From: Propionibacterium australiense
GTDB lineage: Bacteria; Actinomycetota; Actinomycetes; Propionibacteriales; Propionibacteriaceae
Assembly: GCF_003666605.1 (NCBI RefSeq)
Contig: NZ_RCIV01000005.1
Coordinates: 1-64,000 of the forward strand
Direction: 5' to 3'
DNA length: 64,000 bases
Shown here one piece after another: positions 62,942 through 63,978 of this stretch (the first letter of the stretch is position 1; each line of letters begins with the position of its first letter). The translations under genes and the position numbers were made by a program. Under the pieces are notes generated by a model. It worked only from the letters and a program-made list of their open reading frames with translations, searched no databases and had not been told where the DNA came from.

Positions 62942-63091
62942 AGACCGGACCAATAGCCACCCCGGTGCCGGCTGGCGCATCATTTCATTGTGCAACCCCA
63001 TGTCAGAGGGCTGTTGGAGACTTCATGGGGGTGGGGGATGCGCGTCGCCGGACGACACGACGGGGCCCGCGGCGGGTGATAGGACTGAATC

Positions 63092-63153: not shown

Positions 63154-63822
63154 ATGACCACGCCTGTGCCGCTCGGGTTCTACATCGACTCCGCCGATAC
63201 GGCGGTCCACGAGAAGTGGCTGCCCACCGGGGTCTTCCGCGGCGTCACGACGAACCCGACCCTGCTGAGGGACGCCGCCGTGCGCCTGGCCGACGTGCCG
63301 ACGTTGTACGCCAGGTCGCGTGAGCTCGGTGCCTCCGAGTTCTTCGTCCAGACCTGGGGCGCCGGCGCCGAGGAGCTGTACGCCCACGCCCAGCGAATTC
63401 GCGCCATGGCACCCGAGGCGATCATCAAGGTGCCCACCACCGCCCCCGGCGCGCAGGCGGCGTTCCGGCTGCGGGCGGCCGGGGTCCCGGTGCTCATGAC
63501 GGCGGTCTACTCGGCCGGGCAGGCGCTCGTCGCTGCCGCGCTGGGCGCCGAGTACGTCGCCCCCTACTTCAACCGGATGTTCCTGGCCGGCCGCGACGCC
63601 GCAGCCGAGATCTCCCACATGACCAGCGCCATCGCCCAGGACGGCTCGGGCCCGCTCGTCGTCGCCGCCTCCATCAAGTCGGCCCAGCACGTCGTCGCCC
63701 TCGCCGGCCTGGGGGTGCGCCGCTTCACCATCTCGCCCGAGGTCATCGCCGAGCTGTTCACCGACGAACTCGCGGCCGCCGCCGTCGAGGCCTTCGAGAC
63801 CCACATGACCGACGTGCTCTGA
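63154..63822 (+). CDS. transaldolase/fructose-6-phosphate aldolase-like protein
   Basis: The 222-residue protein has the FSA/TalC fold: FYIDSADTAV (Asp12), GVTTNPTLLR (Asn34), Schiff-base Lys92 in EAIIKVPTT and PYFNRMF. FSA-type enzymes split fructose-6-phosphate to dihydroxyacetone and glyceraldehyde-3-phosphate. Fructose-6-phosphate is the product of the divergent glucitol operon, so it may extend that pathway. GAAGGATTC precedes ATG 63154. Confidence 0.85.
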   Translation: MTTPVPLGFYIDSADTAVHEKWLPTGVFRGVTTNPTLLRDAAVRLADVPTLYARSRELGASEFFVQTWGAGAEELYAHAQRIRAMAPEAIIKVPTTAPGAQAAFRLRAAGVPVLMTAVYSAGQALVAAALGAEYVAPYFNRMFLAGRDAAAEISHMTSAIAQDGSGPLVVAASIKSAQHVVALAGLGVRRFTISPEVIAELFTDELAAAAVEAFETHMTDVL

Positions 63823-63827
63823 TACCG

Positions 63828-63978
63828 GGCTACCCGTGTGCGCGTCGGGGTGAGCATCCCAAGCAGTTCGGTGAACGTCACCCCCCGGAGGCTGCCCGTG
63901 TGCGCATCGGGGTGAGCTCAGACGGCCCCGGCGTGATTGTGACCAGGGGAGGCTGCCCGTGTGTACATCGGGGTGAGC
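63828..63978 (+). CRISPR. edge of a probable type I-E-like CRISPR array (3 repeats, 2 spacers in window)
   Basis: Three 28-bp repeats at 63828-63855, 63890-63917 and 63951-63978 (for example GGCTGCCCGTGTGCGCAT then CGGGGTGAGC) differ at two to four positions. The spacers of 34 and 33 bp are unrelated to each other. Length, 61-62 bp period, CCCG...CGGG dyad and the GGGGTGAGC end resemble actinobacterial I-E repeats. The first repeat begins 5 bp after the aldolase-like stop; no leader or cas gene is visible, and the array is cut by the window edge. Confidence 0.6.

Follow-up and report, generated by a model that had tools for sequence, protein, structure and literature searches.

An isolated three-repeat CRISPR-like mini-array with type I-E geometry but a non-I-E repeat in Propionibacterium australiense

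A three-repeat CRISPR-like cluster in the genome of Propionibacterium australiense is real and isolated. It has type I-E geometry but a non-I-E repeat, and it is a closed element of three repeats and two spacers, not the end of a longer array. Its surroundings were read in the first 64,000 nucleotides of contig NZ_RCIV01000005.1 (the window) and onward; the contig is 155 kb long and extends 91 kb past the window. The explanation that we favor, with modest confidence, is an inert orphan CRISPR-like mini-array whose two spacers came from I-E-type spacer integration, either at an ectopic site or in a foreign array.

RESULTS

Repeats and spacers

Sequence comparison within the window gave the following units, all on the forward strand.

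Repeat 1, 63828..63855, +: 28 bp, GGCTACCCGTGTGCGCGTCGGGGTGAGC
Spacer 1, 63856..63889, +: 34 nt (33 nt if the repeat is counted as 29 nt), without match
Repeat 2, 63890..63917, +: 28 bp, GGCTGCCCGTGTGCGCATCGGGGTGAGC
Spacer 2, 63918..63950, +: 33 nt, without match
Repeat 3, 63951..63978, +: 28 bp, GGCTGCCCGTGTGTACATCGGGGTGAGC, the final copy, with nothing repeat-like after it

The three direct repeats are spaced 62 and 61 bp apart. Their pairwise identities are 26/28, 26/28, and 24/28, and 24 of the 28 columns are invariant. The core 21-mer of the repeat occurs 3 times in the window with ≤3 mismatches versus 0.05 expected, and the best triple in 20 Markov shuffles scored ≤36/56 versus 52/56 observed. 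The preliminary description, three 28-bp CRISPR-like repeats that begin 5 bp past a metabolic gene, is confirmed. The two spacers are mutually unrelated (their alignment is no better than that of shuffled sequences; P = 0.14), and conserved 28-nt units separated by unrelated spacers are not the pattern expected of a decayed tandem duplication. The cluster shows the features of the general CRISPR criterion, direct repeats of 23 to 50 bp and unique spacers of regular length.

Two other interspersed triples of similar quality were found in 0.94 Mb (the window plus the GTDB loci), ∼2 per Mb. Their periods, 45 and 66, are both divisible by three, pointing to coding repeats; for the mini-array, a coding repeat was ruled out by its periods of 62 and 61, which are not multiples of three.

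Genomic neighborhood

The mini-array lies between a metabolic gene and a toxin-antitoxin pair.

Transaldolase/fructose-6-phosphate aldolase-like gene, 63154..63822, +: 222 aa (Pfam TAL_FSA, E value 1.3e-29)
CopG/RHH-type antitoxin gene, contig 64056-64334: to the right of the mini-array
ParE-type toxin gene, contig 64331-64600: after the antitoxin gene

The stop codon of the transaldolase-like gene (63820-63822) ends 5 bp before repeat 1, and the coding sequence therefore excludes a leader on the left, as originally noted. On the right, the mini-array is ∼80 bp upstream of the CopG/ParE-type pair, beyond which asnB is found on the opposite strand. An inverted GTATACAT/ATGTATAC motif directly precedes the start codon of the pair (contig 64056-64600) and is a likely operator.

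From the window alone, the cluster had been suspected to be the old end of an array that runs out of it, with further repeats, a leader, and cas3/cascade genes to be looked for to the right. Reading the contig onward revealed no fourth repeat, and the toxin-antitoxin pair and asnB occupy the sequence instead. The other proposal, an orphan array, was borne out, as there is no leader-like region and there are no cas genes near the mini-array.

The cas genes of type I-E are carried by another contig (C7), which has a complete cas3-cas8e-cas11-cas7-cas5-cas6e-cas1-cas2 set and an array of at least 52 repeats (GAATTCCCCGCGCCACGCGGGGGTGAGCC; 29 nt, 62-bp spacing); they go with this different repeat. 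The flanks of the mini-array share no similarity with the 579 bp on the cas side of the C7 array. Within that array (L009 1001-1589), three repeat-spacer units form a 186-bp block that is present in 3.2 copies at 100% identity; these are spacers duplicated by recombination or an assembly error. Contigs C1 (about 174 to 193 kb) and C6 (about 48 to 61.5 kb) each contain a Cas1g-type cas1 and 36-nt repeats with a period of ∼72 bp, and the C1 locus also encodes Cas5-6g, Cas3g, and Cas8g. The 3-Mb genome thus has three CRISPR-Cas loci, one I-E and two Cas1g. The mini-array repeat does not match the repeats of any of the three.

Comparison with type I-E repeats

Array consensus repeats were collected from 22 regions of this genome and related ones, 20 of these regions being cas8e neighborhoods in relatives, and an I-E profile (HMM) was built from 16 family repeats, that of C7 included. 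Family I-E arrays have a predominant period of 61 and a 28-nt repeat, and the mini-array, with 28-bp repeats spaced 62/61 bp, has the same geometry. All three copies end in GGGGTGAGC, with which many family I-E repeats also terminate at their 3′ side, in the corresponding position and strand. The likeness was noticed post hoc, and the figures for its rarity and similarity are accordingly indicative: the 9-mer has only 2 further occurrences in 166,000 strand positions, between 0.4% and 6% of fragments drawn at random from the window reach the modest whole-unit similarity to I-E repeats, and 0.4% equal the unit's alignment with the best family repeat.

The sequence of the repeat is another matter. 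The profile does not recognize the mini-array copies (E value of about 76, the best match covering the last 9 nt only), and they lack the CCCCGC...GCGGGG stem of the Cas6e-recognized I-E hairpin and fold differently. The period of 61 to 62 and the 3′ end are I-E-like; by its sequence, the repeat is not recognizably I-E.

Between any two copies, 2 to 4 of 28 sites differ (3 to 5 in a right-anchored frame that takes in the base following GTGAGC), whereas the distance to each of the family I-E repeats is ≥11 sites. This bears on the idea that the cluster is the decayed, leader-distal end of the resident type I-E array, for which the period, the 3′ GGGGTGAGC shared with the resident array, and the slight degeneracy of the copies could be cited. 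Decay after duplication would make the copies diverge independently; here, the differences from I-E repeats are common to all copies (2 to 4 between copies versus 11 to 14 to the nearest repeat), so the divergence predates the duplications. In addition, the resident array is on C7 and nothing continues rightward here. Judged from these sequence differences, the decayed-end reading appears largely refuted by the shared divergence, and we consider it very unlikely.

Distribution of the repeat, locus, and spacer matches

No further copy of the repeat core that matches well was found elsewhere in the genome. The family's 197 other genomes do not contain the repeat, and none of 84,980 species genomes contains its exact consensus. 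With a looser gapped pattern, the matches listed were single chance matches only. Of 57 family genomes, 16 have the transaldolase-like gene; the two congeners searched do not. In two congeners, asnB adjoins ilvD, and the transaldolase gene, the array, and the toxin-antitoxin pair are missing from the junction; the contig of a third congener breaks off about 700 bp beyond asnB. Because these congeners (one genome per species) are without the whole locus, they offer no empty site for comparison. In one congener, a stretch of about 65 bp (CTGGCCACCAGCTGAGCCCGTCTGCTCGAG...; L080 4256-4360) is duplicated in tandem almost perfectly.

According to the preliminary description, an ordinary intergenic repeat would show no further copies beyond the window and the same spacers in different species. 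Only the first was observed: conservation of the spacers across species is contradicted by the lack of the repeat in the 197 family genomes and of the locus in two congeners.

These data are relevant to a non-CRISPR explanation, in which a dyad-symmetric element, such as a binding site or an RNA hairpin, would occur three times in the intergenic stretch that separates the transaldolase gene from the toxin-antitoxin operon. The unit is indeed near-completely dyad symmetric and folds with paired ends, unlike the I-E hairpin; the profile does not see it as I-E; there are only three copies, with neither protospacers nor a leader; chance or functional interspersed triples arise at the ∼2 per Mb given above; and about 27% of CRISPR predictions were deemed suspicious in one survey (PMC5294841). 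Conversely, a period of 61 to 62 with unrelated 33- to 34-nt spacers is exactly I-E-like, a period that is not a multiple of three leaves no coding repeat, the genome holds no other copies, unlike what is seen with REP or STAR-like elements, and the mini-array matched no structured RNA family of Rfam. We regard such an element as possible but unlikely.

The spacer search proposed at the outset yielded nothing: neither spacer had a meaningful match in phage and plasmid records or an exact 20-mer match in IMG/VR viral contigs. With an anti-cas role in mind, the spacers were also compared with cas regions, both here and in some relatives, and no meaningful match emerged.

Degenerate mini-CRISPRs next to toxin genes are known, namely, CreTA and CrePA (PMC10097628; PMC12737573), and the mini-array could be a regulatory guide locus of this kind, whose crRNA-like RNA would direct Cascade to repress the neighboring toxin-antitoxin or transaldolase gene. 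Its position upstream of the CopG/ParE-type pair in a genome with an intact Cascade fits, as do its degenerate repeats, which are typical of creA (PMC10097628). In addition, a seed-like match of 9 nt (6th base excepted) to spacer 2, in one register of the spacer, lies next to an ATG at 63003, ahead of the transaldolase gene; it is equalled by 0.2% of random spacer sets, with the region and the PAM set chosen post hoc. However, that register is two bases off the one expected when the repeat is aligned to that of C7, the related Cutibacterium acnes I-E system is reported to have 5′-AA as its PAM (PMC8595920) and not ATG, the intergenic region between array and antitoxin contains no PAM-flanked seed match, no comparable match with a PAM was found at the toxin-antitoxin promoter, and the repeats are without the native Cas6e hairpin. 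We consider regulation by a guide RNA very unlikely.

DISCUSSION

Origin of the mini-array

Integration by a type I-E machinery, the origin that we favor, would account for the geometry as follows. An I-E-type Cas1-Cas2 integrase would insert ∼33-nt spacers and duplicate a 28- to 29-bp target each time, which gives the period of 61 to 62 bp. The target would have been something other than the resident I-E repeat: either a chromosomal sequence that ended in GGGGTGAGC by chance (ectopic founding of a "neo-CRISPR") or the repeat of a foreign array that has since been lost. Growth would then have stopped, with neither a leader nor cognate cas genes at the site, and the copies would have drifted by 2 to 4 substitutions; the mini-array presumably has no immune role now. 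In favor of the mini-array reading are the period, as in the resident I-E array, the conserved units with unrelated spacers, the shared 3′ end, the divergence that precedes duplication, the restriction of repeat and locus to this genome among those compared, and the complete I-E set in the genome; against it are the small number of copies (three), spacers without a protospacer match, the missing leader and stem, the nonrecognition by the I-E profile, the modest whole-unit similarity to I-E repeats, and the lack of an empty site.

Between the two targets, we slightly prefer ectopic founding over a foreign-array fragment; the absence of the consensus from 84,980 species genomes and of any array of it from other family genomes mildly favors the former. 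In its specific form, a natural neo-CRISPR founded by two integration events of the resident I-E Cas1-Cas2 at a chromosomal position whose only resemblance to the true repeat is the 3′ motif GGGGTGAGC, this proposal is tentative and, on its own, rather doubtful. If true, it would provide an example from a wild genome of how new CRISPR loci arise and would show which part of the repeat, the 3′ end, is read by the integrase. Otherwise, the mini-array is another small orphan CRISPR-like element, and a warning against calling three-repeat arrays I-E by period alone.

Comparison with known systems

With the type I-E arrays of the family, including that on C7, the mini-array has in common a 28- to 29-nt unit, a 61- to 62-bp period, and the 3′ end GGGGTGAGC; it differs in its three copies without leader or cas genes, in the absent CCCCGC...GCGGGG stem, and in the ≥11 differences in the repeat. 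CreTA and CrePA mini-CRISPRs are similar in that a degenerate mini-array lies by a toxin gene in a genome with an intact Cascade. Unlike them, the mini-array has no credible target in the toxin promoter and is unlinked to the cas locus, and its neighbor is an ordinary two-protein toxin-antitoxin pair.

Noncanonical integration by I-E Cas1-Cas2 has been shown experimentally (Nivala et al. 2018, as related in PMC9456107 and PMC11788318). As far as those accounts go, the resulting neo-CRISPR loci were described under Cas1-Cas2 overexpression, whereas the mini-array is natural, has two spacers and mutated copies, and comes with no empty site seen. The likeness is that repeat-spacer units stand alone, away from CRISPR sites, in a genome that carries I-E adaptation genes, and we count as a further likeness that their repeat sequence is set by the target site.
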